This document shows, piece by piece, positions 9,815 through 64,000 of a stretch of 64,000 bases of DNA. The notes under the pieces were generated by a model. It saw nothing but the letters and a program-made list of their open reading frames with translations, was not told the DNA's origin and ran no database searches. A program made the translations under genes and the position numbers. How positions within the stretch are numbered: the stretch's first letter is position 1; the number at the start of each line of letters is the position of its first letter. The DNA lies in assembly GCF_035946055.1 (NCBI RefSeq), contig NZ_CP108364.1, positions 62,001 to 126,000 of the forward strand. The letters run 5' to 3'. Source of the stretch: Streptomyces sp. NBC_01341. GTDB lineage: Bacteria > Actinomycetota > Actinomycetes > Streptomycetales > Streptomycetaceae.

Positions 9815-9836
9815 GCTCCCGCAGGACGTTTCTGGC

Positions 9837-40307: not shown

Positions 40308-40802
40308 ATGGGTGAGGGGAGCCCGCTGGGCGGTGGGGAACTCTTCGATTCGTCTGTGGGGATCGAGTCGATGCAGCAGCGCATCGCTCAGGCGATGGCG
40401 GAGTTGGAGAATGTTCAGAACGGGGTGGCGAAGGCTGAGGCGGAGCTTCGGGCGGCGTCGGTGACGGTGCGGTCGAGGGACCGTGCGGTCGAGGTCACGG
40501 TCGGGTCGCAGGGTGAGTTGACGGGGTTGGTGTTCCTGGAGGGCAAGCAGCGCACGATGGCTGCGGGTGAACTCGCGGCCAGTGTGCTGGAGGCTGCCGG
40601 GCGTGCCCGTACGCAGATGTCGCGTCGTGTGATGAAGAAGCTCCAGCCGTTCACCGAGTCCGGTGGCGCGGTCCCTGGGTTCCCCGGTATCGAGGTCGAC
40701 TGGGAGCGGATCTTCGGGCCCGGGGTGCGGGACGGGTCGGGCGGCGGGCGCAGGCGGGACAGTAAGTTGCAGGATGAGATCGGCGAGGATGCGGAGGACT
40801 GA
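40308..40802 (+). CDS. YbaB/EbfC-family protein
   Basis: 164 residues. After a short leader comes the YbaB/EbfC pattern: a long helix with coiled-coil character (SMQQRIAQAMAELENVQNG), strands ASVTVRSRDRAVEVTVGSQ and ELTGLVFL, then the helix AAGELAASVLEAAGRARTQM. The polar C-terminal tail of about 60 residues is extra compared with the roughly 110-residue housekeeping protein. The family binds DNA as dimers, but diverged actinobacterial copies encoded beside WXG100 genes may instead act with secretion substrates. It is the first gene of an operon: 3 bp separate it from the WXG100-like gene. Confidence 0.8.
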   Translation: MGEGSPLGGGELFDSSVGIESMQQRIAQAMAELENVQNGVAKAEAELRAASVTVRSRDRAVEVTVGSQGELTGLVFLEGKQRTMAAGELAASVLEAAGRARTQMSRRVMKKLQPFTESGGAVPGFPGIEVDWERIFGPGVRDGSGGGRRRDSKLQDEIGEDAED

Positions 40803-40805
40803 GTC

Positions 40806-41144
40806 ATGCCTTCTGGGGAATACACAGCAAATCCTACGGAGCTTCAGATTGCGACCTCAAGTATCGAGGAGCTTTCCAGGATGATCAGTCGTGCTACGGC
40901 CCGGTTTGTCAGCGGGCAGCGTGCAACCGCTGATTGGTATGGCTGGGATGACGATTTCGCGAAGGAGATAGGGCCGAAGACGGAACAGGAGAACCGGACT
41001 GTGATAGCGACGGGGGAGTCACTCGAGGCAGCCGTGTATGCGGTGACTCACGGCACACTTGCCAACCTCGAGAACATCAACCGGACTCAGGGCGCGAATA
41101 TCGAGGCCATCAAGGACGAATCCAAGAAGACCGGACGGCACTGA
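40806..41144 (+). CDS. WXG100/ESX-like small secretion partner
   Basis: 112 residues, all helical, with a central W-x-G turn (ADWYGWDDDF) between two long helices (LQIATSSIEELSRMISRATA and VIATGESLEAAVYAVTHGT). This is the helix-WxG-helix hairpin of EsxA/EsxB-type type VII secretion substrates, though the region between is longer and more acidic than usual. GGAGG lies 8 bases before the ATG. It is placed between the YbaB-like gene and the giant gene with gaps of 3 and 6 bp, so it is probably the co-secreted partner or chaperone of the giant protein. Confidence 0.78.
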   Translation: MPSGEYTANPTELQIATSSIEELSRMISRATARFVSGQRATADWYGWDDDFAKEIGPKTEQENRTVIATGESLEAAVYAVTHGTLANLENINRTQGANIEAIKDESKKTGRH

Positions 41145-41150
41145 TCAGCC

Positions 41151-42240
41151 ATGGCCATTGAGGCAAGCGAGGACCTGAACAACACCTTCTGGGCGCTCAC
41201 CGGCCTGAGGATGCCGTACGCCAACGAGGACAAGGCGCTCCGGAGCGCCATTCCGCTCAATGGCCTGGCAAATGATGTACTCAAAGCCAACGAGTACATC
41301 AGTGGCACACTCCTCGGCGCGGCCCGCGCTTTGCCCCCGCAGGTCGGGAACGCTTACCTCAAGGCCGTGAGTCTGCTTGTGGACGACGGCGGTACGAACC
41401 ATCTGAAAAATTTTGCGGATCAGTTGATGGAGATTGCTGACGGCCGCAGGAAGACGGCGATGAACATCGTCGAGGGCAAGGTGCAGCTCATAGCCGAAGT
41501 CGTGCGGCTGATCCTCGAGCTTCTGGTTCTTACCGTGCTGTCCGTCTTCTCGGGCGGTGCCTCCGCGGGCGATATAGCAATTGCCAAGGCGGCGACGCGT
41601 CTGCGGATTCTGACGATTCTCGATCTGTTGATCAAGCGGACGCATCTCATGCCCTCGGTGAGTGAGGCGTTCGAGGAGGCGTTCACGACCTTCGCGGTCC
41701 GGCTGTCGCTGATCGCGGGCGGCCCGGACGGCCTGAGGCCGAAGGGCATCGACTGGGGTGCGATCGGCAAGGACGGTCTTTTCGGTGCACTCGGAGGCGC
41801 GTTCTCGCATGCGCTGCCCGGCATGGAGAACAAGCTCAAGAATCTTCTGAAGACGTTCGACGAGCATTCCACCTTCGACAGCAAGAACCTGGTCCAGGAT
41901 GTGACCAAGAAGTTGGACGGTCCGGGTCTGTCCGGGGCCGGCAGGAACGTGCCGGATCGTTCCGTCAGGGACGCGGGCACGCTGACCGGCGGGAACGGTC
42001 TCTCCCACGCCCTGGGCAACGTGACCAGTGCTGGTGGCGGGGCGGTGAGGACCTTCACGTACGAGGGGCTTTCCGAGACTCTGGCCGAGTTCCTGGGCAC
42101 CGGTCTGTTCGACGGGAAGTGGGCATGGAGCTGGGCAACCATGCTCGGTGCCGGCACGAGCAGTGTGGTGACGCAGGGACTGTTCCTGGGCGTGGGCCTG
42201 GGCGCGGGCGCGCTCTTCGCGAGCAAGTTCAATTTCGGCA
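41151..42240 (+). other. Giant protein: N-terminal CpnT/WXG100-like membrane region
   Basis: Residues 1-363. It begins NNTFWALTGLRMPYANEDKA and has helical segments (FADQLMEIADGRRKTAMNIV). Two hydrophobic stretches, VVRLILELLVLTVLSVFSGG and VTQGLFLGVGLGAGALFA, could insert in or cross a membrane. The layout matches the N-terminal domain of CpnT-like actinobacterial toxins that are routed by type VII secretion. Confidence 0.65.
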
Positions 42241-45200
42241 ATATCGCCAGTGTGCTGAACGCGGGCGTGAACGCGCCGGCGGGTGCGGGCGCCACGACCG
42301 GGAACCCTGCGGGCGCCCACGGGGTGCCGGCGGGAGCCGGTGGCCCGGGGGTGGTGTCCCCGGCGGGAGGCGGCAACGTCAACGTCAAACCGGTGAAGCA
42401 GCAGGACTTCTCCGGCCTTTCCACCTTCACACCGGGGGCCGGCACCGGCAGGCCCGATGTCACCACGGTCAGCTCCGACACCCACATGCCCGGCACGGGC
42501 GGCACGACCCATCCTGCGGGCGGCACGACGAGTCCTGCCGGTTCACCCATCGGTGCGGGCGCCCCTACGGCCACCCCGGGCCGCCCCGTCACCAGCAGCA
42601 CCGGCCCGGCGGGCGAACAGCCGCACACCCTCCAGCAGCCCGACAGCGGTGAACACAACGAGGGCGAGGCCGAGACCGGACCGGCCCACCAGGTCCCCGC
42701 CGGCAGCGGACACACACCGGGCAGCTCCGTCACCTCACCGGCCGGCAGCACGCACACGCCGACAACACCGTCCAGGCCCACCACCTCCCCACTCGACACG
42801 ACCGACACCACCGACGCGACGGGCACCACCGACACGACCGACACCACCGACGCGACGGGCACCACCGACGTGACGGGCACGACCGGTTCGACGGGTACGA
42901 CGGGTGCCTCTGATGCGGCTGGCACGGCACCGGCTGCGGCGCATGACGGCTCCACACCTGTTCAGCCGTCCGGTTCCCCGGCCGGCGGCCACCAGCAGAC
43001 ACCGACCACGTCCTCGGCCACACCCACATCCACACCCACGTCCACGTCCACACCCCCGGCCTCGGTCTCGGGGCCGGTCACCGGTGCGCAGGCAAGTCCG
43101 GCAGCCGCCGACGCCGCGGGCAGCGGCTCCCACAACCCGGCCGGCACCACCCAGCCCACCACAGCCGCGGCTCAGCGGACAGCGGACGATTCACCGATCA
43201 CGTCACGTGAGGCCCACCAGGCCGAACACGACGTCTGGCAGCGGCTCTTCGCAACGCCGTCCGACGACCATCAGGCACTTATCGACGAACTCGCCGCGCA
43301 GCGGGGTGGCATCGCGCCGACCCAGCGGGAGATCGACCTGCGCCAGGGCGTCCACAGCCAACTCGGCGCGCTGCCCGGTGTGATGGTGACGCTGGAGGAC
43401 GGGGCGGGCTTCGGCCAGCACGCGGCCGCGGCGACGCTGATCAACTCGCTGAACGCGCTGGGCTATCCGGGCCGGTTCACGCTCGCGGCACCCGACACGG
43501 TGGCGGACCGCCTGGTCTCCCTGATACCCGCACACCTCGGACCGCGCATCGACCGCCACCCGACGGACGCACCGGACACGACAGGGCAGGCCGGTCTCCA
43601 GGCGAACGACGGGAGCGAACTGCCGGGCGACTGGCTGACATCGCTCCACGACCGGGGCCCACACGGCCTGCAGGGCTGGGCACAGCTGCACGACGCCGAC
43701 GACGCCCTGTCCGCCCTCGCCACGCTCCCCCCGACCACCGGCGGCGGTCTGCGCCTGGACCCGGGCCCGCTGCGACAGCTCTCCGCCGTCCTGGACAGGG
43801 ACCAGCTCACCACGATCCTCGGTCCCGCAGCCACCCTGAAGCAGGTCGCCGGCCACCACGGGGGCGACCCCTTGTACTCCGGCAACCCGCAGCCGGACGC
43901 GACAGCTCTCACGATCAGCCCCGACCAGCTGACCCGTCTGCGGGCCGCCGTCACCGCCTACCGCGACGAGCAGATCGCAGCCGTTCAGAACGCCGCGGCA
44001 CAGACACCGGCCCTGACACCCGACCAGGTCGTGTTCCTCGCCGACACGATCCGCCGGTCGCTACGGCCCGAAACCCGCCTGCACACCACCTTCGGCACAC
44101 CGAACGCACAGCCCCGCAGCACACAGGAGGAGCAGGCCGGCCCACTCTCCTACTCCGCACAGTCGGTGGAGCCGGAACTGTCGCCGAGCGTGCCCACGGT
44201 CTCCACACGCGACGCCATCGGCGCCACCGGTCCGACACCCCGCCCGGTCACCAGCACCCCGCTCACCACATCCACCGACCCGGCCATCAATACCGACACC
44301 GACACGGATACCGACACGGACGCCGGCACCGAGCCCCCGGACGACGAGTCGATCTCCGGTGACACCCTCGTCGACGACAACAGCGACGACCGGGACGACC
44401 GTGACAACAAGGGAGACAAGAACGCGGCCGGGAAGGAGGACCACCTCAAGCGGTGGCTCCACAGCCTCACCGCTCCGAGCCCGGAGGCGGACAGCCCGCT
44501 CGCTTCAGCATTCGGGAAGACGCCGCCCTTCAACGTGCCCGCACAAGACATCACCGTCCAGATGCTCAGCAGCATCGACACCAACCAACGGATCGACGAG
44601 CGGGTCGGCGACGACTCGGATGACGCGGACACACTTGATTCGGGCAAATCGGTTTACGAAGACGCATTGGATTCGTTCCCGGACGACCCGACTGCCGAGA
44701 CTCGGTCCAGCCACCAGGAACAGCCGGCTGACGTAGCCGCCGAAACGCCCGTAAGCCGCGCCGACATTGATCGGAACCTGGATGAGGAGGTCCGATTCAC
44801 AGGGATCCTGCGCCCGGAATCGCAGGATGATCGGCAGCAAGCGCCACCTGAGCCGATCTACTTGATGGGTAGGGGGATCGGACGCGACAGAGAGACGCAG
44901 TTCGAGTGGTCGAGCGTATCCGAACATTCGAGTACCCGTGCAGTGAACTATCGCCCTTTGCCGCCTCCGGCGGTTGTGGAAGGAGTGGCGGAGTCCGATG
45001 CCGGCGCGCTGGGGGATGCGGAGATCATTCCGACCTGGTTCCGGCAGTCGGCGGTCCCCGGGCAGCCGCGTAGTGCCGTGGTTCAGAGGGTGGATGCGGC
45101 AGTGCGCAGTTGGATGGCCGGCAGCCGTACCAGTGGTGACCGATCAGGGAACCGACAGCAGTTGCGCACCATCATTGAGGCTTTGGAGGCGTGGAACGGC

Positions 45201-48200
45201 AAACCCGACCGGAGCATCCGAAGCGAGGCGGCGAGCCGGCTGCTGGCACACGTCCGAGCGCAGCACGCGTGGTGGGACGATGCCAGCTCATTTGACCCGG
45301 TGCTGCCGTCGGCCATCGCGCCGCCTGCGGCGAACGAGCTGGTGCGGGACCTGCCTTTGATGACGCCGAGGGAGCGTGCTCAGACGCTGGACTCGTTGAG
45401 CACGGAAAACCGGCGTTGGCTGGCACGGAACGGCGTGTTCGTTGACGCGCTTCATGAGGCCCTGCCGGCGGGTGAGTTCGCTGCCACCGGGGCTCGGCTG
45501 CTGGTGGAAGTCCCCGAGGGGAGCGAGGAGCCCGCGTCGGCCCGTCACGAGGCTCATGCTCAGATCAGCCGCCTGCTCCAGGACGGCGTTACAGCGGCCC
45601 GGCTGCTCAAAGCAGGCGCGCGCGTGGTCATCGTGCCCCGCGATGTCTCCATGACGTCCCTTCCGCTGTTCCATGAACTGCGCGGCGGCACTTCGGCTGT
45701 TGCATCCGGGCAGGGCCGCGGTTTCGACGCCACGCGCGGACTCGGAGGGCGGTCAACTGCTGTCACGGAGGAGAACCTGCTCGGGGCCAGCACACGGATC
45801 GCCCCCAGCTACCCCGACGGCTACTCGACTACCACTCACGAATTCGCCCACGCCATTCACTGGTACGCGCTGACGCCGGAGGACCTGGCAGCCATCGATG
45901 CCAGCTACCGGAACCGGTATCGAAGAGGTATAGGAGCTGAATGGCCGGACGGGACCACCCAGGCGAACGATAAGGGGAATCGAATTGAAAACTACTCATC
46001 CTCCAACGTCGAAGAATATTTTGCGCAGCTGACCAACGCCTACCTGGGCACGAATCACGGCACAGACCCCTACAGTGGCCAACAGCGCAACAACGGCTCC
46101 GAGTGGGTTCGGGCCAACGTAAGTGAGCTCGTGCCGTTGCTGGAGCGGCTTTACGGTTCAGATCCCATGGCCATCCACCGTGAACAGGCCAATCCCGTCA
46201 ATGCCACCCGTGCCGACAAGGAGATGTACGACAGCTACCGGGACTTTATGGAGCAGGTCGACGAGTCATCGGCGAATGTTGCTACGCCGGATCATCTGAC
46301 GCATGAATCACCTGAAACAGGGCCTGGAGCGTCCGTTTCGCACAAAGAGACTGCTCATCATCTCCCCATGCCCCCGAGCGCAGAAAACAATTCTGTTTCT
46401 GCCTGGTCCGCGCAGATACGCTTTTCTGAAGCGGCAAAGGTATTCGAAGAGCGGTTGGGGCGTTATCTGGTACAGCGACCCGAGTCCCTGGTGGCCACTC
46501 GACAGGCGGTCCAGGTGATTTGGGAAACCTTGGAGAAGGGGCATCCACAGCTTCTTCCGCTTCTGGGGGCGCAAGGCAACGACTGGGGCGCTGGAAATGT
46601 CGGAAACAATGTGAGCACGCTCAGGAACGTGGTTCGGTCGGGGAACCTGCGCGAATTGTCCGCAATGCTTTTCTATGCGGTTTCCTCAGATGCCTTGGCC
46701 GAGGTGATCGATCCACCTTCGTATGACGATTTTCCGGAAATTGGAAAAGAGCGCGCCTGGCGTCGAAAATTTGATGTGGAGAACCTTCCCAAGTCGCTCA
46801 GGCCGCAACATGTCGTTCCTCCGCTAAGTGCAGCCGAGCGAAAAATAGCAATCAGAAAGGACAAATCCGGAAAGGAGTTCGTGGCGTGGCTACCGGCAAC
46901 CGTTAAAATGGATCTTCCGGTGCAGGCCCCCTTGCACCAGAGCGGGCAGACGACCGGGGCCCTCGTGGCCACGGGAACTTCTGGCTCAATGGCATTTACT
47001 CTGGAGGCGCTATGGCGCCTGCAGCAGCACAGTGGCCGGGTATTCGATTTGCAGGAAATTCGCCTGGGTCTTATCGGGCATGCGCTCGCAGCAAAGCATC
47101 ACACCCTTCACGAATTGCTGCGGTCCGCGCAAATGTGGGACGAAGCGCACGGAGAAACAGTTTCATATGTGAACGAGTGGAGTCGCTACCGGCACATCCC
47201 TCCGCTGACCGAAGAGGAATTGCGCGCCTATGTCGCCGCAGGCGGCTTGTTCCCCGACGAGATCGCACTAGGGGTTAGGTCGCCGCAAGTTCACGACGTC
47301 CCAGCCACTGGAGCAGAAGCTCTCACGGCGCTGGGTATCGATCCCGCCTCGTGGGATGCGCATCTGAACGCCACCGCTCCCGCCGGAGGGCCGGTGACGC
47401 GACCCGGCGAGAGGCTGCGCCTCTGGTCACAATGGTGGCAGGCGAGCCGACGGGTTGAAATGATCGACGCGGAGGAAGCTCTGCGCCAACAAAGCCATGG
47501 CCCTGACGGTCAAACACTGGACAGGCAAACCGAGTCCGATTCTTCACGGGTCACGCACGCAGCCGAACGTGCTCGGAAGCAGAGAGACAGCGCGGCTCAA
47601 GCACTGCAGCGACTGGGCCACGACCCGCACACACTGACGGCCCAGTTCGAGGCATGGGTCACCGAACAGCAGTCACATGCACAGCGCGCACGAGGCGCTC
47701 ACACCTCCCGTACATTTCGCTATCGTCCTCTGCCTCCCTCGGCGCTTACGGAGGACCAACAGAAGCAGCCGCATGAATCTCAGACACCAGCGGTGGGACC
47801 GTTTGGTCATCAGGCTGCTGTCCACCAAAGCAAGGTGGAGCAGAGTTCAGTTCACCCTGTGGAGGTGGGGCGGGCGGAGGTAGTTCCGCCGCCGGCGGAG
47901 GTTGTGGCCTGGGCCGGTAATAGTGCTGGCCTGCCCATGCGTGCGTTTGAAGTGCGGCGGGTCTCGCTTGGGGACGGGCAGTTTGTGAGCGTCGTGGTGG
48001 TGCGGGTGGTGTTCGCTCCGCAGGAGGACGCTGACGGCGTTTCGCCGAGCGCGGAGGATGTGCTGGAGGTGGCGGCACGGGCCCAGCGCGGGATCACTAG
48101 GTTTTTCAATGGTGGTTTGCGGCTGCCGAGCGGGGACCGCCTGCAGGTGACGCTGCAAGCGGTGGACGATGCCGCACACGCGCATCATGTGGTCAAGCTC

Positions 48201-57200: not shown

Positions 57201-60200
57201 GGAGTAATACTGCGAGGCGATACCGGCTGGATCGGCCGCATCGACAACTGGGACACCCTGCACCCCACCCTGGACACCCCCGAACCCACCCACACACTCC
57301 GCAGCGACGGCCACACCCTGCACATCACCCCCCACACCACACACACCGGCCCCACCCTCCGCCTCCCCCTGACCCCCACAACCACCACCACACAGCCATC
57401 GGCCCGCAACCTCCCCCGGGCCCCCGAGACCGCCACCAGCCACCAACCGCAACACCAGCCGGACGGTGACAACACCAGCACCCCGCCCACGGAGCCGACC
57501 ACCGGCATCGTCGCGGACGTCACCGGACCCCGCACCGACGTAACCACAGCGGTGGCCTTCGAATCGTTGGCGGTCATACCTTCCGACGACGGCACTGACG
57601 GTCAATTCCTCCACGTCGACCCACAATCGGCTCCCCCGCACCTTCAGACCACCGAGCCCGGACAGGTAGTGACCGAGGGGGCCGCTCGTTTTGAGAGCGG
57701 CGTCGGCCTCACCCGTGCCCCTGAGCTGACACAGGAACTGAAGGCACGCCTGCACGACGATCGTGTCCGCTCCGCGCTGATCGTCCGGTCCGATGTGGAA
57801 GGCCTCGCCTACGACAGCCGTCTGGACATCACCTGGTATCTCAACCCGCGGGCTGAGATACCCCTCCGCGAGGTAGGCCTGAACGACCAGGACACGATCC
57901 GCCTCGTCCTGGCCAAACCCGCCATCGACCCCGGACTGGCCACAAGCCTGCGCCGGCACCACGATTTGTCGGCGGAATCCGCGCAGCAGAGCCCGACACC
58001 CGTAGCAGCTCACGACGACGGGCAAAGCGCACCCCATCCGGGCATCGACGACCTCCTCGATGACGTCGACCATGCCGCGGACGACCGGGCCGCGTTCACA
58101 CCAGATGCGGACACGGAACGTTCCCACGCCGACATACCGACACCCTCCACACGCATAGACGCGGACCCCGCCAACACGCCGCGTGGAACGCACGGGACAC
58201 CGCCACTCGCCATGGGGACAGGAAATCGTGCGCCAGAGCGCCGGATGATGGCGCCCCAGCGGCGCGTTGGCGCGCTGCGCAGGGAGTGGCCGCAGGGCGC
58301 CGATCCGGTGCAGCATGTACAGGGTGCTGGTCCGGGCATCGTGCATGTGCATCGGTACTCCGGCGTAGGTGATCCCAGACTCTCCGAGATCGCCGGGATC
58401 ATCCTTGACGCGAGTACCTGGGTCAGCCGGGCAGGTCACCCCAAGCCCGAGATCAAAGTCATCGGATATACGGAGCAGAACTCTTCCGAGAACGAGGCGG
58501 CCATCAGGAATGCCGGGATGCGCGCAGAGCTCGTTTACGCGGCCCTGAGCTCCCTGCTCTCCGAAGGCTGGGAACGCAATATATCTCTCCGGGCGTTCCA
58601 GGACAAAGCATTCGACATATCGGTGGAGGTCCGGTCGGCCGCGGAAGGCGGCGTGAATGTCGAGGTTCTGTACCTTCGGACAGAATCAGAGCGCCCGAGG
58701 CCGGCGACCGCTGCTCTCGCTTCGACATCCGCCGTCCGGGCGACGCACCGCACTCGACCCGGACACGCTACGCAAGAACCGCCGTTGCGGACGGAGTCGG
58801 ATGTGTGGAAGGAGCGGATCCTTCAAGACTTCGGCGTATCCGTGAATTCGAAGACCGTGGCCGAGGCTGTCAACACGGCCTATTCGACGAACGTGAGCAA
58901 GCCACTTAAGTGGGATGCTTCTTCCCTGTCGCAGGTCCACGCGGCATTGAATCACTATAGGCCGATCATTGACAGGCAGCGCGCTGCCAAGAGCGGTGGC
59001 AAGCTGGGAATCAAAAAGATCGGCTTCCTGTCGACCTTCCCCGGCGAAGAGATTGAAAATTTCCGTACTGCCGGCATTCATTTCGATTCCGTGGTTGCTC
59101 TCTTCTCGACCGCACGCAAGATTCTGGCAGGCCGTGACCAGTCCGCTTACCGGCCGGACGGGATTAAGTGGGTAACGACCCACGAAATAGCCCATTCCGA
59201 TATGTTTGATGATGCGCTGCAGGAGTTCATCGAGCAGTTCCGCCAGCGGAAAGACAGTTCACTGGTGACTGCGGAAGATGGCATCACGGAAACTCCGGAA
59301 AGTGATTTCCGGGAGTCGATCAGATGGTTCCTGCGGGATCCCGAAAGGTTGAGGACATTGTGGCCCCGGCGCGCACGGGCGATCGATAGGCTGATCGGAC
59401 CCGGCCCTGGGCCGGCGTTGCGGACCGGTGAGACCCGGACTGCCGGAGCGCGGCGCATCGCGGCGGAACTGGCCGCCTACCTCCCCTGGTTTACCCGCAT
59501 GGTCGGCGAGTGGGACGAGAACGGCCACCGGACCACCTATGAAGAGGCGATCAGCGAATACGCCCAAACGTCCCCGAGGGAGGATTTCGCCGAAACTGCG
59601 ACACACTACTTCAACGACAGGGAATACCTGCGTGAGTATGCGCCGCAACGTGCCGCGTTCTTCGATCGTCTGGTGAAGTCCTGGGAGTCCTGGGCTGAGC
59701 CATCCACAAGCCACACGGCACACAACCGGGCAGCAGCCTCCCGCACGCCCCGCCACATGATGGTCAAGCAGGCCACGGAACATGTCACCGAGGCACACGC
59801 CGGGCGGCAGGGACAGATCGGCCCGCGGGGTATGGACCAGGTTCAGGATGGCCACGAGGCTGACGAGTTCGCGTCAGCCACAGATGGGCCGATAGATCGG
59901 AACGTGGTCTCCCCGGCGGATACCGGTGGGGTGCGCGTGGCCGCTGGGACGGCGATGACCTCGCCCTCGCAGGAGGGCGCCGGGTACGGGCCCGGCGGCG
60001 TGCGGCCCGAGCCGGTGCGGGAGTCTGCGCACGACAGCCTTGTCGTGCGTGAGGGACCGGCCCGTTTCCCTGGGGCGGGCGAGTCCGCCGAGATCGTTTA
60101 CGGCGGTGGTCTTACGGCCGTCGTCGAGTTCGCTTCCGATGGGGTCGCCCTGCCCCTCGTGGCCGCGGACGACGTGTCGCAGGACGGGCCCGCGGGAGTG

Positions 60201-63200
60201 GAACCCGCCACAGGGCAGGCAGCCACTCCTGCCTCGCCTGCCCACGAAGCCGGCGAAGGCAAGACAGCCGCCGGCCCTACCCAGATCCCTCACACGGGGT
60301 CAGCGTCCGCGCAGACCGGGGAGGTGCCCGGTGGCAGGGGCCGCACACAGGGTTCGTCCGCCGTCGAGACCGTGCCGCGCGGCGAGGCGACGGGCCCTGA
60401 ACAGGAATCCCCCGCCGGCCTCGCCGCCGGTACCGGCGACCCGCACAGCGACGATGGCACAGCGCCTGGCAGCACGATCGGCGTCGCGCGTGCTCTCGAG
60501 CAGGCCGAGAACTTGTACCAGTCGGTCAATCTCGCACTGCCGAAGAGCGAGCGGCCGGTGTCGCGAGAGGTGGTGGAGCAAATTCGCCGGGAGCTGGTTG
60601 AGAAGGCCGGGGGTTCGCTGGGGCGGATCAATACGCGGGCACTGGCAACGGACATCGCCGCACGCGTCCTTGGCCGCGAGCTGCCGCGCATGCGTGCCGG
60701 TGTCGGGGCCGCCATGCTGCCGCTGGACGAAGATCAGCGGGAGCGCTACCAGGTGGTGCATCCGGACATGGAAGGGTTCGTGTTCCGGCCCAGGGTTGAG
60801 GCGATCGTGGCGGACAACGAGGTGCATCACGCGCTGACAGGAAAGCGGAAGGAAGGCGTCTTCCCAAGGCTGTCCGTGAACCTCATGCAGCGTTATGCCG
60901 GCCGTGTGTTCCGCGAGACGCAAGAGTTGCTGGAGCGGTATGCGGGGGTGGTTTCCGACCGTGTGGGCCCCGAGATGCTGCGGGAAGCGCGCGCGTCGAA
61001 ATCACTTGACAGCGAACTGGAGCGGTTCCCGGAGCTCGCCTCGTTCCACCATCAGCGTCCAGGCAGTTCGCAGACGCTGACGCCCATCAAAGATAAGGGG
61101 CGCACGTATTACCGGGACACGAACATCCCCTTCGATGAGATGACGGAGTGGGCGTTCGAGGTGGGCGGTACCGCGGTGAGCGTGCACACCGATCCCACCG
61201 AGCCCGAGCAGCTGACCCAGCAGCGGATCGAGCAGTTGGAAGACGCGGTGAGCCGGGTCCAGGACGCCGGCTTCTCGGTCCCGGCCATACGCGTCTACCT
61301 GCCCAAATACGCCCAACCGATCGCAGCCCTCTCCGGCGAGGACACCCAGGTCGACAAGAAGGCGCCCAAGGACTGGAACGCAGACGGGCAGTTCTTCCAG
61401 CCTGACATGCTCGTCCTCTCCCCCCGCCTCCTCGCCTCCAGCGCCCCCACGCGTGAGGCCGACGGGACTTTCACACATCTGGACTCGCAGTTCGCCGACT
61501 CCGGGATGGCGACCATCATCCACGAGCTCGGGCACTTCCTGCACCACACGCAAAATCCGTCACACTTCTACGACACCACCACCGCCACCGAACTGCTGGA
61601 CAAGAAACCCGCCCGAGCGCTGTCCGCCTACGCTACGGACCCCCTAGAATTTCCCGCAGAAGCCTTCCTCGCACTGGTCATGGGAAGGCCCCTGACCCCC
61701 GAACAAGACGCCCTCTACACGGCACTGGGCGGCCCCCGCCCCACAGGACCACTGCGCCCGCCACCCCGGCCACCCCTCAACGCCGACCAACTGCGCGACC
61801 TCACCGATGCCGTCAACTCCCAGCTACGCCGCCGCAGACTGCCCGACATCACCACCCCTTGGGTCGCGGAAAACTATCCACGCCTGCGCATCGACCTCAC
61901 ATGGAGCTACCCGGGCCTGACCGCGGCCGCACTCGCGGACATCCGCCAGTACGGACACATCGCCCGCATGCACGGTGGCGCACCCGACACCACGACAACC
62001 CGCGCCCACAACACAGCCACACACCCCGCCGATCAGACACCTGGGGCCGGGCCCTCCGGCCTCCACACGGACAAGGGCAAGGCCCGCCAGACACAACAAG
62101 CCCCCGAACCCAGCCTTGAAAGCGGGCACCCCACCCAGAGCGGCACACACCACGCCACACAAACCGGTCCGTCTCCCGCGGCGATCACCACCGCCCTTCC
62201 GGCCCCGCCGACAGGCACCGGAGAGGAAGCGCGACCGTCTGTGCCTGCGGGCCGCGACGACACATCTGGTGCGCGGACTTCACCGGTCCGACCCGCCTCA
62301 CCCGGTGAAGCCGTACCCGCCTCGCAAGCCCCCGCGGATCCCGGGACCGCACGAACCGGCCCCATGCACCAGACCACCGAGCCCGGACAGGTGGCCGCCG
62401 AGGGGGCCGCTCGTTTTGAGGGCGGCGTCGGCCTCTCCCGTGACTCTGAGCTGACACAGGAACTGAAGGCACGCCTGCACGACGATCCTGTCCGCTCCGC
62501 GCTCATCGTCCGGTCCGATCTGGAGGGCCTCGCCTACGACAGCCGTCTGGACATCACCTGGGACCTCAACCCGCGGGCTGAGATACCCCTCCGCGAGGTA
62601 GGCCTGAACGACCAGGACACGATCCGCCTCGTCCTGGCCAAACCCGCCATCGACCCCGGCCTGGCCACAAGCCTGCGCCGGCACCACGATTTGTCGGCGG
62701 AATCCGCGCAGCAGAGCCCGACACCCGTAGCAGCTCACGACGACGGGCAAAGCGCACCCCATCCGGGCATCGACGACCTCCTCAAGAAGGTTGACCAGAC
62801 CCCGGAGGGCCGGCCCACTTCCCGTTCCCCCCGTGCCCCGGTCCCAGGGCCACGGCGAAGTCGCGTGAACGCGGCCGTCGGCCCGGACGCGCCGGCGGCC
62901 GCAGAGGGGCTGGGGGGTGAACTGTCTATCGATGTAGCGCCAGCCGTGGACTACAAGCTTGTGCACCCCGGAGACCAGGACTTTGTTGTGGAGAGCAACC
63001 TCGGTGAGGTGGTCTGGAACTTTTCGAACACAGAACCTCATCGAAGGTTTCTTGAGGGGCTCGTTGCTGACGAGCCGACCCGGATCGTTCCGCTGTGGGA
63101 ATGGCAGCTGGAAAACACCGCAAGTACCTATGTTTCCACGACACGCAACAGCGACCTTTGGTACGGCGCACGGCGCTACAGGTATAAAGTCGAAACTTCA

Positions 63201-64000
63201 ATGAATGCCGACGCCCGAGGGATTGACGCCAATGCGACAATCCAGCGACAGCGAAACGCCGGTATCCTTCCGGTGAAAGCTGTCGAAGAATATGATGAGT
63301 ATTCAGAATTCACCGAAGAGGAGGAGGTTTCGTTCACAGGGATGATTCAGCCGGGCGCCTTTGTTAGCGTTTATGACAGAAAGCACAATAGGACTGGCAA
63401 GTGGAATTCAGAACTGGGTGATGTTGAGTGGATTGATGGTGCGCATGACGGTGCGAGATCATTTGAAGGGATCAATTCAGATGTCGCGCCAAATCTCCCG
63501 CTCCAGGAATCCGATGGCGATCGCATGCCTGCATCCACCGGATTGAACGACGCGGCTCGGCTCGCTCCCGTCAGCTCGATATTGGAAGAGCATCATTCTG
63601 CTGCTGAATTCGCCCGGGGCGCGGGCGAGGTGGTATCGGATCGATGGATTCCTTATGGGGCGAATAAAAGGAATGGCCAGCCGGCCGGCCAGGAGGCTTT
63701 TAGCTTCACGCGGAGCGTGAGTGGCAGGTTGCGGGTGCTCCGGTTGCCTCAATCGGGTGAACGGTTGCAGGTAGGATATGCATGGATATGGCATGGAGGT
63801 GCTTCCCCAGCCGCAGACGTCCTGTCCATGACACGCCGAATTCACTTGCGCGGTAATGGTGTGAGTCGGGAGCAGATTTCCGATGTTGAAGCGCGAGTAA
63901 AACGCGGCTTGGATGATCTGATAAATCGACGCGGCTACCGATTGCCCGCTCTGCAGCCAAATGTCGTGTTCGGCCCGCAGTGGCCGGGGCCAATTCTGCG
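41151..64000 (+). CDS. Giant multi-domain type VII-linked effector/polymorphic toxin (3' end outside window)
   Basis: One reading frame runs from the ATG without any stop to the edge: 7,616 complete codons, more than 0.8 MDa, still open. The N-terminal region (residues 1 to about 365) is CpnT/WXG100-like with two hydrophobic segments. Then, separated by Pro/Thr/Gly- or Asp-rich linkers, come modules listed individually below: four HExxH metallopeptidase-like units, two papain-like Cys/His units, an EndoU-like duplication, three winged-helix-like units, an amidoligase-like region, an OmpA-like segment and internal duplications. I met only two Cys codons. Similar giants with YbaB and WXG100 neighbours occur in Streptomyces, and I recall the label 'lonely Cys domain-containing protein' for some. 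Likely role: secreted weapon or processed polyprotein (inferred). The start lacks a strong ribosome binding site and is probably coupled to the preceding gene. Confidence 0.93.
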   Translation, partial: MAIEASEDLNNTFWALTGLRMPYANEDKALRSAIPLNGLANDVLKANEYISGTLLGAARALPPQVGNAYLKAVSLLVDDGGTNHLKNFADQLMEIADGRRKTAMNIVEGKVQLIAEVVRLILELLVLTVLSVFSGGASAGDIAIAKAATRLRILTILDLLIKRTHLMPSVSEAFEEAFTTFAVRLSLIAGGPDGLRPKGIDWGAIGKDGLFGALGGAFSHALPGMENKLKNLLKTFDEHSTFDSKNLVQDVTKKLDGPGLSGAGRNVPDRSVRDAGTLTGGNGLSHALGNVTSAGGGAVRTFTYEGLSETLAEFLGTGLFDGKWAWSWATMLGAGTSSVVTQGLFLGVGLGAGALFASKFNFGNIASVLNAGVNAPAGAGATTGNPAGAHGVPAGAGGPGVVSPAGGGNVNVKPVKQQDFSGLSTFTPGAGTGRPDVTTVSSDTHMPGTGGTTHPAGGTTSPAGSPIGAGAPTATPGRPVTSSTGPAGEQPHTLQQPDSGEHNEGEAETGPAHQVPAGSGHTPGSSVTSPAGSTHTPTTPSRPTTSPLDTTDTTDATGTTDTTDTTDATGTTDVTGTTGSTGTTGASDAAGTAPAAAHDGSTPVQPSGSPAGGHQQTPTTSSATPTSTPTSTSTPPASVSGPVTGAQASPAAADAAGSGSHNPAGTTQPTTAAAQRTADDSPITSREAHQAEHDVWQRLFATPSDDHQALIDELAAQRGGIAPTQREIDLRQGVHSQLGALPGVMVTLEDGAGFGQHAAAATLINSLNALGYPGRFTLAAPDTVADRLVSLIPAHLGPRIDRHPTDAPDTTGQAGLQANDGSELPGDWLTSLHDRGPHGLQGWAQLHDADDALSALATLPPTTGGGLRLDPGPLRQLSAVLDRDQLTTILGPAATLKQVAGHHGGDPLYSGNPQPDATALTISPDQLTRLRAAVTAYRDEQIAAVQNAAAQTPALTPDQVVFLADTIRRSLRPETRLHTTFGTPNAQPRSTQEEQAGPLSYSAQSVEPELSPSVPTVSTRDAIGATGPTPRPVTSTPLTTSTDPAINTDTDTDTDTDAGTEPPDDESISGDTLVDDNSDDRDDRDNKGDKNAAGKEDHLKRWLHSLTAPSPEADSPLASAFGKTPPFNVPAQDITVQMLSSIDTNQRIDERVGDDSDDADTLDSGKSVYEDALDSFPDDPTAETRSSHQEQPADVAAETPVSRADIDRNLDEEVRFTGILRPESQDDRQQAPPEPIYLMGRGIGRDRETQFEWSSVSEHSSTRAVNYRPLPPPAVVEGVAESDAGALGDAEIIPTWFRQSAVPGQPRSAVVQRVDAAVRSWMAGSRTSGDRSGNRQQLRTIIEALEAWNGKPDRSIRSEAASRLLAHVRAQHAWWDDASSFDPVLPSAIAPPAANELVRDLPLMTPRERAQTLDSLSTENRRWLARNGVFVDALHEALPAGEFAATGARLLVEVPEGSEEPASARHEAHAQISRLLQDGVTAARLLKAGARVVIVPRDVSMTSLPLFHELRGGTSAVASGQGRGFDATRGLGGRSTAVTEENLLGASTRIAPSYPDGYSTTTHEFAHAIHWYALTPEDLAAIDASYRNRYRRGIGAEWPDGTTQANDKGNRIENYSSSNVEEYFAQLTNAYLGTNHGTDPYSGQQRNNGSEWVRANVSELVPLLERLYGSDPMAIHREQANPVNATRADKEMYDSYRDFMEQVDESSANVATPDHLTHESPETGPGASVSHKETAHHLPMPPSAENNSVSAWSAQIRFSEAAKVFEERLGRYLVQRPESLVATRQAVQVIWETLEKGHPQLLPLLGAQGNDWGAGNVGNNVSTLRNVVRSGNLRELSAMLFYAVSSDALAEVIDPPSYDDFPEIGKERAWRRKFDVENLPKSLRPQHVVPPLSAAERKIAIRKDKSGKEFVAWLPATVKMDLPVQAPLHQSGQTTGALVATGTSGSMAFTLEALWRLQQHSGRVFDLQEIRLGLIGHALAAKHHTLHELLRSAQMWDEAHGETVSYVNEWSRYRHIPPLTEEELRAYVAAGGLFPDEIALGVRSPQVHDVPATGAEALTALGIDPASWDAHLNATAPAGGPVTRPGERLRLWSQWWQASRRVEMIDAEEALRQQSHGPDGQTLDRQTESDSSRVTHAAERARKQRDSAAQALQRLGHDPHTLTAQFEAWVTEQQSHAQRARGAHTSRTFRYRPLPPSALTEDQQKQPHESQTPAVGPFGHQAAVHQSKVEQSSVHPVEVGRAEVVPPPAEVVAWAGNSAGLPMRAFEVRRVSLGDGQFVSVVVVRVVFAPQEDADGVSPSAEDVLEVAARAQRGITRFFNGGLRLPSGDRLQVTLQAVDDAAHAHHVVKLYTAVKRTTSNAWPANVQAFVAAHEIGHLIGLRDEYREAAYGPRPVYDDGALMVGFLVDQQGRALLDEDRLPKPAGHSRMTVAPRHLRQLGAAVDQALGVARPRIDGETAFATEDAIAPRSDGLPARAHFSLEVRQAVLYGDTRTGRAGALPSRGISARPRREPEWMNENNTFSAISPLPGAGEETTRVAPVAGDIVAPFRLRRQMMFPEYWTEDDAVYAAEQSYLHALRGNNVTVVPGRDHIYTWVGEYGGVRIEGELRGDVFTSFRLAQDQSGLKVPPYLPAPVQIPRPIAGPAFGHRVEDIAAYGDRVSRTGAHHRLPARNAFGRGVHAKTVETLNNGTHAADVYFLDPELGPRDVLAELPSRWRLHTAGKSTVLFPEAWTPQQVLDNVEQAHLQAVTSERTRLLDNGAYHWVGDSNGVRIEGLVRNGQYVAYRPTAHQPYTDWPSKQQPVAVTPLAPLTGTDHVKMQRVLFPNGQHALQFAVYVHLDLEPGADAAAAAAIWRLLQLGANMWTKPRSNSGTLVRFGLVRVQQPGPTAVSLPIGPENLSAEQIARFLTDLFPVKSDQRSIEELTQSLIAKDPDPLWMAPTGSVTDTKMTGTAFRKNLQNWLLRTDVLVGPTTLSAYDPTDSNTAEQHAPTLLEVADVQKAFAPGLEPVMSQGLPRNWTRDDLLAAAYTTYVYRASANARFKVLPQDPDTDTSVVQGLFRDVAVEITIRGEQKQIVAVLGTTASPGSAEAPSPQGQGKSPAATDTGIGMPGMSTLPTTTPIGQTPTSPDASPERLARLQAALDTHRPSTPDTPRPGARPTAPGSLASPESTTGNDESATPPPGHNPGNDAVSFDHSRRGGSSWRGESSARVIGEMAGQAARAAADMEATRLAQTGPVPGPAWGQYCLRLIEDLANRLTGRIRTGRTADDLTLHAGEPARRHLNIPTDLWHPVTDYTTLTHTLAQTPPGTLAYLITGRPSHIGHAAAIAHTTDHGLILINPTTPGHHTLTPLTTTSDRNSSTQGSGVRGAAGTGTQHTDGKTMPDTVDGLTPGALLADHLPAPVHSRVLITGPDGHLITPTPQPTTTPTIQALTDPTHPHTGKFAPIQHGDAERLRDYINASKEGGRTRDKIGAELFTRSRSSGDITTLVKGLEEYPARYRTWNKEGTTYYRLIIDPDTNKEYQMPAGAIDARDLDGTAQPQLVVDPAVLAKVKTAVDNAGANGIPLHDFNGILSKKNRKYATAAVQALIDTGDYRKVKQGKGFLIQLIDAPDTQPQAPDPSTLQRLADSLEVAGEKGMSRSDILKTLPRRYADKVRVNALLGGLGGAPGLYRTWKVKPPSRGLVAEFYGPAGPPVGPEYPAPANGSGVRVLGDPWDVGLVTSARSHWLSTPEGRTPTVVQMRTAVADHLEELHTGHDPQGSHVWQALEHALLKEPSANWSSSSDEAQIQDDRARLIAEIRSGERTPAAWVAIGHLAPTLFPSAAPAPAATSSSTLGNTLGPVGGPQAAAVIPGHVPGTWPGMVPSPVAQDSWRLGSSSGGHGGGVDDPAGVEQAAEGMGDWQGRSLGAGTSPMTEADQPVAGVWPGEDPSAWYASGDAREGMVTPGPDAAYSPLVDQGPAERGEPVEAPGDPRGGLWSGHDLSAGPVSEYLDGVNAHLVGPPAGPGYPPPAGGSDARVLGDPWDVGLVTWAQGQWLSTPEGRTPTLAQMRTAVADHLEELHTGHDPQGSHVWLALEHALLNQPLANWSSSSDEAQIQEDRARLITEIRDGARTPAAWVAIGHLAPTHFPSAAPAPAATSSSTLSNALGPVGGPQAAAVTPGHAPGTWPGMVSPPAFQGDVWPPGDDAAAGFTHEDPDSMPGILPEPGQEPGQEPGDQISGMGAFPFRTAGNVPAPNANDPMTSGDPFPNPAQKVQWHGLEDALARTWFTPDEVASIKPLPEKPLPEFGTSDQATSPTGAFPSQTGNVHAPHTDDPMTGSDPFPEPVYQQGQWNGPDDAAAVTGPGNAPENLAAQWWWPGQSQVFMATLDPTFDTKLRNVLQEAVGFALNDPNTSAQHLTRLQAALGTHQPAASAERGSGTRERVELAQRDWTGQVAEVAARGEYVELRGGARRSPRGGMTGGVPGLELAVESRNPRIWDRPGLLREIGQVVAAGHGGMPGSAGLSPHEMSEQECLILLQSLRDSLFPQGIAPARAVDDSVLDGRTQEGPLALGPGWRTVASFDRITEALAAAGPGTAAFVLARRSSGRGHAFAAYALPGTSDGGIREDVSPTEIVWIDLTAGGDRQLAARPPGMAPLEARAVIIDKNARVAAGALPEHIESTSVQALIDPAGTHQYGALGIEVEFHQDLGLKSPDAPDVYGQVIATHTSGADLTFDARRFWRSGDSLYMTWDDAYRAGHAEPIAEDHHIPEFVSAPASILPGETRTLDLKATKILLESTRRHLNVTEAKTLGEILHGRDGWSVEPHLMSHVIHPAPAGGDGENLYTQMTVGLPVDGFLSLLHLNDARTDGMAYDLLDLSRGFGRIYAEKFVSGFYGYDIPDSGIYLLTSDRLVREVWGYGWLAFNHAAALFLSAVNHRRLAKNWVPTASRNPLGELHAALHPAVQDFFEREYGNIEQNFVRVITGLAEKYQDHEIESPIDQLLYIPIGDEGNFTPRDYLAFAFRGNNSGRPVSQRDAIGMRLDPLYDRLEMQDGIPLALLELRQFGSKAGLVSSRQRNQYLREVSDNVRQSFLNHRQEATTDHLGEMAKRILSHPDVSQIAPLLKIIPRMVVAGPPGTPETTHSDQTLFLARSLDEFTQNRPLPARAIEELNVLSATIQKLLSEGVSDLADPEVRAGLIRAIQAVYRLSTPHRTEIHRPTEQTVHPSFYPGGPRGGQASHRSGLFYPQGGQNPWNRPGGSRDTGLDPTGLPLGHRITVEGPEARSVVTVPHTPTRPMGDAKGKQQPAWTRFELSDPSRPHAQFGYDVSDTGEIHYSHHDDSDGNGDGEGVTRLSADGWTAYGDDFLHLDHGVILRGDTGWIGRIDNWDTLHPTLDTPEPTHTLRSDGHTLHITPHTTHTGPTLRLPLTPTTTTTQPSARNLPRAPETATSHQPQHQPDGDNTSTPPTEPTTGIVADVTGPRTDVTTAVAFESLAVIPSDDGTDGQFLHVDPQSAPPHLQTTEPGQVVTEGAARFESGVGLTRAPELTQELKARLHDDRVRSALIVRSDVEGLAYDSRLDITWYLNPRAEIPLREVGLNDQDTIRLVLAKPAIDPGLATSLRRHHDLSAESAQQSPTPVAAHDDGQSAPHPGIDDLLDDVDHAADDRAAFTPDADTERSHADIPTPSTRIDADPANTPRGTHGTPPLAMGTGNRAPERRMMAPQRRVGALRREWPQGADPVQHVQGAGPGIVHVHRYSGVGDPRLSEIAGIILDASTWVSRAGHPKPEIKVIGYTEQNSSENEAAIRNAGMRAELVYAALSSLLSEGWERNISLRAFQDKAFDISVEVRSAAEGGVNVEVLYLRTESERPRPATAALASTSAVRATHRTRPGHATQEPPLRTESDVWKERILQDFGVSVNSKTVAEAVNTAYSTNVSKPLKWDASSLSQVHAALNHYRPIIDRQRAAKSGGKLGIKKIGFLSTFPGEEIENFRTAGIHFDSVVALFSTARKILAGRDQSAYRPDGIKWVTTHEIAHSDMFDDALQEFIEQFRQRKDSSLVTAEDGITETPESDFRESIRWFLRDPERLRTLWPRRARAIDRLIGPGPGPALRTGETRTAGARRIAAELAAYLPWFTRMVGEWDENGHRTTYEEAISEYAQTSPREDFAETATHYFNDREYLREYAPQRAAFFDRLVKSWESWAEPSTSHTAHNRAAASRTPRHMMVKQATEHVTEAHAGRQGQIGPRGMDQVQDGHEADEFASATDGPIDRNVVSPADTGGVRVAAGTAMTSPSQEGAGYGPGGVRPEPVRESAHDSLVVREGPARFPGAGESAEIVYGGGLTAVVEFASDGVALPLVAADDVSQDGPAGVEPATGQAATPASPAHEAGEGKTAAGPTQIPHTGSASAQTGEVPGGRGRTQGSSAVETVPRGEATGPEQESPAGLAAGTGDPHSDDGTAPGSTIGVARALEQAENLYQSVNLALPKSERPVSREVVEQIRRELVEKAGGSLGRINTRALATDIAARVLGRELPRMRAGVGAAMLPLDEDQRERYQVVHPDMEGFVFRPRVEAIVADNEVHHALTGKRKEGVFPRLSVNLMQRYAGRVFRETQELLERYAGVVSDRVGPEMLREARASKSLDSELERFPELASFHHQRPGSSQTLTPIKDKGRTYYRDTNIPFDEMTEWAFEVGGTAVSVHTDPTEPEQLTQQRIEQLEDAVSRVQDAGFSVPAIRVYLPKYAQPIAALSGEDTQVDKKAPKDWNADGQFFQPDMLVLSPRLLASSAPTREADGTFTHLDSQFADSGMATIIHELGHFLHHTQNPSHFYDTTTATELLDKKPARALSAYATDPLEFPAEAFLALVMGRPLTPEQDALYTALGGPRPTGPLRPPPRPPLNADQLRDLTDAVNSQLRRRRLPDITTPWVAENYPRLRIDLTWSYPGLTAAALADIRQYGHIARMHGGAPDTTTTRAHNTATHPADQTPGAGPSGLHTDKGKARQTQQAPEPSLESGHPTQSGTHHATQTGPSPAAITTALPAPPTGTGEEARPSVPAGRDDTSGARTSPVRPASPGEAVPASQAPADPGTARTGPMHQTTEPGQVAAEGAARFEGGVGLSRDSELTQELKARLHDDPVRSALIVRSDLEGLAYDSRLDITWDLNPRAEIPLREVGLNDQDTIRLVLAKPAIDPGLATSLRRHHDLSAESAQQSPTPVAAHDDGQSAPHPGIDDLLKKVDQTPEGRPTSRSPRAPVPGPRRSRVNAAVGPDAPAAAEGLGGELSIDVAPAVDYKLVHPGDQDFVVESNLGEVVWNFSNTEPHRRFLEGLVADEPTRIVPLWEWQLENTASTYVSTTRNSDLWYGARRYRYKVETSMNADARGIDANATIQRQRNAGILPVKAVEEYDEYSEFTEEEEVSFTGMIQPGAFVSVYDRKHNRTGKWNSELGDVEWIDGAHDGARSFEGINSDVAPNLPLQESDGDRMPASTGLNDAARLAPVSSILEEHHSAAEFARGAGEVVSDRWIPYGANKRNGQPAGQEAFSFTRSVSGRLRVLRLPQSGERLQVGYAWIWHGGASPAADVLSMTRRIHLRGNGVSREQISDVEARVKRGLDDLINRRGYRLPALQPNVVFGPQWPGPIL
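42250..43200 (+). other. Giant protein: low-complexity linker with Thr-Asp repeats
   Basis: About 315 residues rich in Gly, Pro, Ala, Thr. Around 42790-42905 it is a near-tandem repeat of TTDTTDATG units. Probably flexible and extended. Confidence 0.8.
43200..44110 (+). other. Giant protein: unrecognised folded region
   Basis: About 300 residues with regular secondary structure, for example PGVMVTLEDGAGFGQHAAAA and NALGYPGRFTLAAPDTVADR. The glycine-rich GAGFGQH loop followed by a helix could be a nucleotide- or sugar-binding turn, but I cannot name a family. A long Asp/Glu-rich linker follows to about 44980. Confidence 0.4.
44990..46260 (+). other. Giant protein: metallopeptidase module 1 (HEFAH)
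   Basis: The zinc motif HEFAH is at 45837-45851 (residues 1563-1567). A Glu-rich helix VEEYFAQLTNAYLG follows 58 residues later and could give the third ligand. The HExxH ... EEYFA arrangement resembles anthrax lethal factor-like (ATLF/M34) peptidases. It is preceded by the linker motif YRPLPPPA. Confidence 0.68.
46390..47280 (+). other. Giant protein: unrecognised region with GTSGS and HHTLHELL motifs
   Basis: About 295 residues. VATGTSGSMAFTLEALWRLQ is followed by IRLGLIGHALAAKHHTLHEL. I recall this pairing, a GTSG turn followed by LALIG....DHSLHEIL, from other bacterial polymorphic toxins, without knowing an activity. Confidence 0.45.
47890..48560 (+). other. Giant protein: metallopeptidase module 2, metzincin-like (HEIGHLIGLRD)
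   Basis: HEIGHLIGLRD starts at 48267 (residue 2373): HExxHxxGxxD, the form in which Asp is the third zinc ligand, known from the Streptomyces snapalysin family. About 50 residues later HSRMTVAPRHL could be the Met-turn. A linker YRPLPPSA again precedes the module. Confidence 0.7.
48800..49530 (+). other. Giant protein: duplicated EndoU-like segment
   Basis: Two copies of a pattern FP..WT...V......A...A, W.G...GVRIEG, Y/F-R-P/L: first FPEYWTEDDAVYAAEQSY with YGGVRIEGELRGDVF, then FPEAWTPQQVLDNVEQAH with SNGVRIEGLVRNGQYVAYRP. This resembles the C-terminal half of bacterial EndoU RNase toxins (GVxIEGYxxxG). Catalytic His residues are not securely identified. Confidence 0.45.
50850..51190 (+). 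other. Giant protein: papain-like module 1 (Cys 3246, His 3323)
   Basis: GQYCLRLIEDLANRL carries the Cys (50886-50888), then PGTLAYLITGRP, SHIGHAAAIAH with the His (51117-51119) and LILINPTTPG with an Asn in the third position. Spacing and order fit papain-like toxin folds (Tox-PL/deamidase type). The third residue is Asn rather than Asp. Confidence 0.6.
51492..52205 (+). other. Giant protein: three tandem winged-helix-like units
   Basis: Three units of about 70 residues each: ERLRDYINASKEGGRTRDKI with YRTWNKEGTTYYRL; VKTAVDNAGANGIPLHDFNG with YRKVKQGKGFLIQL; LADSLEVAGEKGMSRSDILK with LYRTWKVKPPSRG. Each has the helix, turn, helix, two-stranded wing order of a winged helix. Confidence 0.5.
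52216..52741 (+). repeat. Giant protein: internal repeat B, copy 1
   Basis: A 526-bp segment repeated 924 bp downstream in the same frame. It encodes GDPWDVGLVT, LSTPEGRTPT, TAVADHLEELHTGHDPQGSH and PAAWVAIGHLAPT. Confidence 0.85.
53140..53665 (+). repeat. Giant protein: internal repeat B, copy 2
   Basis: Second copy, offset exactly 924 bp (308 codons) with no net insertions; differences are scattered substitutions, several altering residues. Confidence 0.85.
54390..55080 (+). other. Giant protein: papain-like module 2 (Cys 4514, His 4590, Asp 4618)
   Basis: EQECLILLQSLRDSLFP contains the Cys (54690-54692), GRGHAFAAYALPG the His (54918-54920) and IVWIDLTAGG the Asp (55002-55004). C...GHAFAA...WIDL is the canonical order for Tox-PL/papain-like deamidase or protease toxins. 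This is the second and last Cys I met. Confidence 0.68.
55170..56290 (+). other. Giant protein: amidoligase-like region
   Basis: GALGIEVEFHQDLG at about 55180-55220 matches the FGxEIEF signature of COG2-type/glutamine-synthetase-fold amidoligases. The region ends with LALLELRQFG near 56288, like the late EFR motif of that family. Between lie PHLMSHVIHP and YTQMTVGLP-type strands. An acting amidoligase would join amines to carboxyl groups; unproven. Confidence 0.5.
57645..58058 (+). repeat. Giant protein: internal repeat A, copy 1
   Basis: A 414-bp segment repeated 4,725 bp later in frame. It encodes ELTQELKARLHDD, SRLDITW and REVGLNDQDTIRLVLAKPAI, then LRRHHDLSAE. Differences cluster at the 5' end; the last 200 bp are nearly identical. 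Confidence 0.9.
58320..58690 (+). other. Giant protein: OmpA-like segment
   Basis: ILDASTWVSRAGHPKPEIKV, then IGYTEQNSSENEAAIRNAGM and RAELVYAALSSLL follow the OmpA C-terminal order (V.G.TD......N..LS..RA..V...L). The family binds peptidoglycan. The usual Asp is Glu, and Gram-positive examples are few, so this is tentative. Confidence 0.4.
58790..59700 (+). other. Giant protein: metallopeptidase module 3 (HEIAH)
   Basis: HEIAH at 59181-59195 (residues 6011-6015) in IKWVTTHEIAHSDMFDDA. A Glu in REDFAETATHYF lies 137 residues later and fits a gluzincin-type third ligand. Residues before the motif (DSVVALFSTARKIL) form the edge strand usual for such peptidases. Confidence 0.65.
60470..61700 (+). 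other. Giant protein: metallopeptidase module 4 (HELGH)
   Basis: HELGH at 61521-61535 (residues 6791-6795) in MATIIHELGHFLHHTQN. EFPAEAFLALVMG gives a Glu 46 residues later. The upstream part contains a long helical region (ALEQAENLYQSVNLALPKSE) and IRVYLPKYAQPIAALSG. The ATLF-like arrangement recalls module 1. Confidence 0.68.
62370..62783 (+). repeat. Giant protein: internal repeat A, copy 2
   Basis: Second copy of the 414-bp unit, in the same frame, no indels. What follows (62784 to the edge) is a new region with LVHPGDQDFVVESNLGEVVW and WEWQLENTAS, unrecognised. Confidence 0.9.

Follow-up and report, generated by a model that had tools for sequence, protein, structure and literature searches.

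A 7,979-residue, cysteine-poor multi-domain frame of Streptomyces sp. NBC_01341 as a probable type VII-secreted polymorphic toxin

Polymorphic toxins of the LXG/WXG kind, exported by the type VII secretion system (T7SS) of Gram-positive bacteria, join a helical N-terminal domain to a variable toxin body and are preceded by small partner genes. Giant multi-toxin proteins of actinobacteria are also known, of which SACTE_5178 (13,652 aa) is the longest; they combine anthrax lethal factor (ALF)-like, caspase, ADP-ribosyltransferase (ART) and other domains (Zhang et al. 2012, PMC3482391). Here we analyze a frame, giant A, that begins in a 64,000-nucleotide stretch (the window) of Streptomyces sp. 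NBC_01341, contig NZ_CP108364.1, and continues past its edge to a stop at genome position 127090, encoding 0.856 MDa of protein. Its sequence and those of its relatives suggest that A is a multi-domain polymorphic toxin behind a predicted helical head, probably exported by a T7SS. With several toxin-type domains in one very long chain, A belongs to the kind of giant already described in 2012, which it resembles in size, in its Streptomyces host, and in holding ALF-like metallopeptidase and ART domains together. The caspase- and OTU-like peptidases of those giants have motif counterparts in B (a sister giant, below) and other giants; A has no caspase-like Cys. The accessible 2012 descriptions, compared here as text and not through the SACTE_5178 sequence, mention no fixed T7SS locus, cysteine loss or duplicated head, and the open-licence literature yielded no joint description of the T7SS address, copied head and cysteine rule. 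Relative to LXG/WXG toxins, A shares the (predicted) helical N-terminus, small upstream genes and variable body, but is far longer, carries many enzyme-like modules in place of one C-terminal toxin, and has no immunity gene recognizable by family among the two small downstream genes searched.

The original prediction, an unbroken frame of at least 7,616 codons with sensible motifs from end to end, was borne out. Extension from the ATG at 41151 to the stop gave 7,979 amino acids, a length over which ~198 stops would be expected by chance at the same base composition. When the frame was divided into 32 blocks of 250 codons, G+C content at the third codon position (GC3) was the highest or shared the top value in 25; the remaining blocks start at 1751, 2001 and 5501 or are the last four (aa 7001–7979), whose coding status is accepted because of homology to other giants, not GC3. 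The four HExxH motifs already noticed (HEFAH at aa 1563, HEIGH 2373, HEIAH 6011 and HELGH 6791) are joined by HEIVH at 7662, just beyond the window edge, making five in all; 500 shuffles of the residues of A averaged 0.48 and never exceeded 4. Both Cys/His units (C3246 and C4514) and both in-frame duplications are also present, the copies of the latter differing at 37 of 456 bases (aa 3709–3860 and 4017–4168) and 12 of 348 bases (aa 5525–5640 and 7100–7215). A scan of 10 overlapping pieces against Pfam and NCBIfam at E ≤ 0.01 found no ketosynthase, acyltransferase or acyl carrier protein domain and no condensation, adenylation or thiolation domain; a polyketide or nonribosomal peptide megasynthase was thereby ruled out, as had been proposed.

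With the head of A as query, two sister giants were recovered from the same genome, both open throughout. B has 14,872 aa and runs in descending order from genome position 1635463 to 1590845; C, counted from its likely ATG, has 8,511 aa and ends at 1759143. A and B share a 4.1-kb block that is 95.9% identical, past which, from a border in a Thr/Asp-rich linker, they have only small related pieces in common; the head therefore appears to have been duplicated onto another body. Read in this way, A is a duplicated head on a different 6,900-residue body, or the reverse, and the conserved N-terminus with exchanged body is evident both in the A/B block and in modules shuffled among the giants. The first 300 codons of A and B differ at 2 codons, both changing the residue, and the 1,051 shared codons give a nonsynonymous rate (dN) of 0.016 and a synonymous rate (dS) of 0.031, values too shallow to prove constraint. 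Across the genus, the head was matched in 44 of 199 genomes (own included), yielding 49 distinct head-bearing frames (three own), 26 of them of at least 5,000 codons, 7 of at least 10,000, and the longest of 17,018. The expectation that a giant outside the megasynthase classes would be exceptional is not supported, given these 26 frames and the published class.

Linkage of this head family to the T7SS is well supported by gene context. B is preceded by genes for EccB (358.7 bits), two small Esx-type proteins (19.7 and 40.4 bits, both under the WXG100 cut-off of 44.85), a 159-aa protein, an AAWKG-family protein (249.8 bits), a YbaB-like protein and a 112-aa protein, the last two being the final genes before both A and B. 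Farther out lie an EccA/SpoVK-type ATPase, over both cut-offs with the SpoVK score higher, and a mycosin-like protease (194.7 bits, under the cut-off of 278.75). The C locus encodes EccB, EccD and an EccA/SpoVK-type ATPase, all over cut-off, and EccC lies 9–10 kb from the starts of B and C; four EccC genes in the genome exceed the cut-off. Of the relatives' 46 loci, 40 were read (all but G183:C182, G032, G113, G178, G135 and G126): 35 have an EccB-like gene within 10 kb upstream and 38 have a YbaB relative. Among the five loci without EccB, two hold second tandem giants (L038, L060), two (L056, L069) lie at a contig end with only 2–3 kb ahead of the giant, and one (L062) has none in the 9.4 kb present upstream. 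B, C and 35 of the 40 relatives' loci are thus T7SS loci, whereas A is tied to one only by descent of its head; its own locus keeps only the YbaB-like gene, the 112-aa gene and an AAWKG tail. The T7SS link had originally been drawn from the giant frame together with YbaB-like and WXG100-like genes. It is supported by the head family's placement in T7SS loci and by the membership of the YbaB-like protein in PF02575; the 112-aa protein has no family match in Pfam or NCBIfam. That A is a T7SS substrate is likely, a claim made from locus and composition and not from family membership.

The composition in question is a near-absence of cysteine. A contains 3 Cys in 7,979 residues, B 7 in 14,872 and C 4 in 8,511; the 36 giants compared, of which 11 of the 33 relatives are incomplete within the retrieved stretch and starts were trimmed by rule, contain 152 in 278,327 (0.055%), and 14 database giants 42 in 75,329. 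The figure for 46 local open reading frames (ORFs) is 0.81%, in a set picked by a GC3 filter that may include false ORFs. Trp (1.33% in giants versus 1.63% in local ORFs) and Met (1.16% versus 1.69%) are only slightly lower. At the same loci, AAWKG-like proteins have 0.028% Cys (38 loci) versus 0.93% for EccB (35 loci), and all six cargo-side genes of the B locus encode no Cys. Pro-Pro endopeptidase (PPEP) modules within giants have 0.062% (11 modules), and separate PPEP relatives 0.59% in the 38 not named Streptomyces or Lentzea versus 0.086% in the 10 so named. Under three crude context rules for thiol proteases (caspase-like HG...C, OTU-like, and papain-like C...GHA), 82 of the 152 cysteines pass, though not independently, as related giants share modules, compared to 7.8% of 20,000 random positions and 7.4% of 16,440 Ser positions. 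Of the three cysteines of A, C3246 and C4514 pass as papain-like Cys-His pairs and C7670 fails. This near-absence of cysteine, with over half of the remainder in thiol-protease-like contexts, is apparently new as far as the open-licence literature shows.

A consists of some ten enzyme-like modules in one chain (Table 1), and the proposed variety of enzyme-type modules proved real in family, profile and structure searches. Structure prediction gives the HEFAH module the fold of a Pro-Pro endopeptidase, an HExxH zincin for which PPEP-1, PPEP-2, PPEP-3 and anthrax lethal factor are the known systems; it has about 16–17% identity to PPEP-1 and differs in being one module inside a giant. PDB sequence searches returned only a designed protein for its alignment A3 (E 0.088) and for aa 679–1033 (M1; E 0.61), only an unrelated match for the HEIAH part (E 0.64), and no match for the EndoU-like module or the deamidase alignment A4. 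In papain-like module 2, ~400 aligned residues lie behind the C4514 part, and the Cys and GHA are invariant in 5 of 5 sequences. The last module (aa 7818–7979, outside the window) is Scabin-like with the R, STT and ExE of the R-S-E signature present, and a sequence profile search gives a match to Scabin at E 1.7e-9. Scabin, an ADP-ribosyltransferase of Streptomyces scabies, targets DNA; its counterpart in A differs in standing at the end of a giant chain, with an inner copy that lacks the Arg. NCBIfam matches to A were all under cut-off, namely a terminal ADP-ribosyltransferase (36.7 versus 250 bits), a weak M6 metalloprotease domain and a chance-like match. The search for a homologue of the same architecture gave a divided answer: the full module order of A is not repeated in any of the 35 other giants compared, but the modules recur shuffled, and a database relative, P0010, joins a WXG100-like head to EndoU and Scabin-like domains.

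If A is a T7SS-exported toxin, its head, possibly with the YbaB-like and WXG100-sized proteins as escorts, would lead the unfolded chain through an EccB/C/D machine whose genes lie at a different locus of the genome. The mycobacterial YbaB-like protein EspL provides a parallel for such an escort. Loss of cysteine would avoid disulfides during passage and outside; after passage the modules may refold and attack the proteins and nucleic acids of competing or predatory organisms, and copying of the head onto new bodies could be a way in which the arsenal diversifies. If it is true that a T7SS passes chains of 0.9–2 MDa, this would set a new limit for that machine, and the cysteine rule, if true, would allow export route and active sites to be read from sequence alone and offer a way to find more Streptomyces T7SS cargo. 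Several observations weigh against this interpretation. The head of A scores 23.3 bits for WXG100_2 (PF25547), below the cut-off of 27, and its AlphaFold2 model is helical but weak (pLDDT 48.8). No T7SS machine genes adjoin A, and Pfam and NCBIfam searches linked neither of two small downstream genes, one of 141 aa and one of the DUF7336 family, to a known immunity family. The small locus genes of relatives range from 0.12 to 0.85% Cys, with crude starts, and are not uniformly poor; 70 of the 152 giant cysteines fail the motif rules, and some passes are doubtful, such as the CASC pair in G067 and G049. Fifteen of the failures occur in one outlier, G122 (L071/L163/L164), which has 22 Cys in its 14,570 codons. 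Finally, the EndoU assignment in A rests on the family score and not on catalytic residues, and the Arg of the inner ADP-ribosyltransferase module is changed.

A different fate is conceivable for the exported chain, namely that A leaves whole as a polyprotein whose own peptidases, above all the PPEP-like one, cut Pro-rich linkers and free separate toxins. The predicted PPEP fold, the five HExxH and two papain-like modules, and the position of the only two PLPP sites of A (aa 1269 and 2193, both YRPLPPxA), which bracket the PPEP–M3 stretch, are consistent with such processing; however, these sites were noticed only after the fact, and PLPP does not set the 10 giants that carry PPEP (12 sites versus 6.3 ± 2.4 in shuffles) apart from the 26 that lack it (23 versus 14.6 ± 3.9). 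With no difference between the two groups among the 36 giants, PLPP-linker enrichment gives no sign of self-cutting, and we regard the polyprotein as a tentative possibility. A bolder combined proposal, in which the Streptomyces T7SS would export megadalton chains unfolded, passage would have purged Cys save for catalytic nucleophiles, and a built-in Pro-Pro protease would cut the warheads apart afterwards, is speculative and on balance improbable. A linker of B contains five KPLPSLPE repeats (aa 6969–7036) at 15-residue spacing.

The lack of upstream T7SS genes, the transposase genes downstream, and the mere 2 codon differences from B in the first 300, as if recently copied or converted, could also mark A as a silent orphan that keeps modules in reserve for recombination with the active B locus. 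We consider this rather doubtful: the 7,979-codon frame is intact and has its own YbaB-like and WXG100-sized genes, although the dN and dS of the shared block are weak evidence either way. It is also unlikely that the giants are developmental or surface proteins acting on the producer's own envelope and not on rivals. In its favor, the Streptomyces T7SS affects sporulation, and the ESX systems of S. scabies and S. coelicolor are tied to sporulation and development in studies cited in PMC8401907; nevertheless, the Scabin-like, EndoU-like and deamidase-like domains are toxin types, and the giants keep a head found in fewer than a quarter of the genus genomes while their bodies differ. An assembly or frame artefact was ruled out, since A lies on one contig of an assembly 99.98% complete and, among the 199 genus genomes, 22 others also carry same-head frames of at least 5,000 codons, as do named database proteins.

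Table 1. Features of the giant A locus in window coordinates
Feature	Position	Strand	Details
Giant frame A	41151..64000, on to stop 65090	+	7,979 aa
Block shared with B head	40242..44338	+	95.9% identical over 4,190 columns; B side genome 1636375-1632201
YbaB-like protein, 164 aa, candidate export chaperone (inferred)	40308..40802	+	Pfam PF02575, 39.3 bits, cut-off 25.5
112-aa WXG100-sized protein, candidate partner (inferred)	40806..41144	+	tblastn relatives upstream of part of the giants
Head domain, aa 1-350	41151..42200	+	predicted helical, WXG100_2-like; PF25547 23.3 bits, alignment A1
Module M1, aa 680-1030	43188..44240	+	whole in B; part (~aa 680-820) in C, G075, G091, G109, G177
HEFAH module, aa 1385-1715	45303..46295	+	predicted Pro-Pro-endopeptidase / anthrax-LF-like zinc peptidase fold
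Module M3, aa 1739-2045	46365..47285	+	in 7/36 giants including A
HEIGH zincin-like module, aa 2255-2450	47913..48500	+	22/36 giants including A; weak PF00413, under cut-off
EndoU-like module, aa 2657-2782	49119..49496	+	PF14436 56.2 bits, cut-off 25.3
Papain-like module 1, aa 3243-3334 (C3246, GHA)	50877..51152	+	profile A4, E 3.1e-9
In-frame duplication, copy 1, aa 3709-3860	52275..52730	+	
In-frame duplication, copy 2, aa 4017-4168	53199..53654	+	
Papain-like, glutamine-deamidase-like module 2 (C4514), aa 4500-5100	54648..56450	+	PF15644 22.4 bits, under cut-off 24.1
Module M10, aa 5211-5379	56781..57287	+	in 10/36 giants including A
Repeat M11, copy 1, aa 5500-5658	57648..58124	+	
HEIAH zincin-like module, aa 5900-6180	58848..59690	+	weak PF15887, under cut-off; relative in B
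HELGH zincin-like module, aa 6526-6856	60726..61718	+	relatives in B and G133
Repeat M11, copy 2, aa 7075-7220	62373..62810	+	
Inner Scabin-like ADP-ribosyltransferase module, aa 7261-7440	62931..63470	+	Arg of R-S-E not conserved
HEIVH zincin-like module, aa 7476-7740	63576..64000, continues beyond window edge	+	

Outside the genus sample, a single-pattern scan of a named collection yielded 56 loci, all labelled Streptomyces but for one [Kitasatospora] papulosa and one 'Actinobacteria bacterium', and a phylum scan found the head in 6 of 396 genomes (own included) and 3 of 236 genera. The longest frame in the phylum scan has 19,630 codons; together with the genus maximum of 17,018 it places these giants among very long proteins for bacteria. 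That longest frame (G133, L166-L169) has just 2 Cys, each followed by GHA, like papain-type pairs. Tandem giants occur at L038/L039 (G141) and L060/L061 (G167), the second giant having no T7SS genes of its own directly upstream.

Two transposase genes lie just downstream of A (L004:7687-8454 and 9259-10284), with the DUF7336 gene (8570-8923) between them. Elsewhere in the genome, a deamidase-like module is also found in a further frame of 2,584 codons (G000:C1:3252887-3253423), and a 3,716-codon frame with 3 Cys (L179, G000:C1:311447-322595) directly follows another EccC gene (307372), possibly as T7SS cargo with a different head. Within the window, a 1,241-aa protein with LamG/concanavalin-like domains (6015-9740) directly precedes an Rhs/YD-repeat protein of 2,169 aa (9837-16346; SpvB, RHS repeats and Rhs core), another polymorphic toxin type, with 1.06% Cys.
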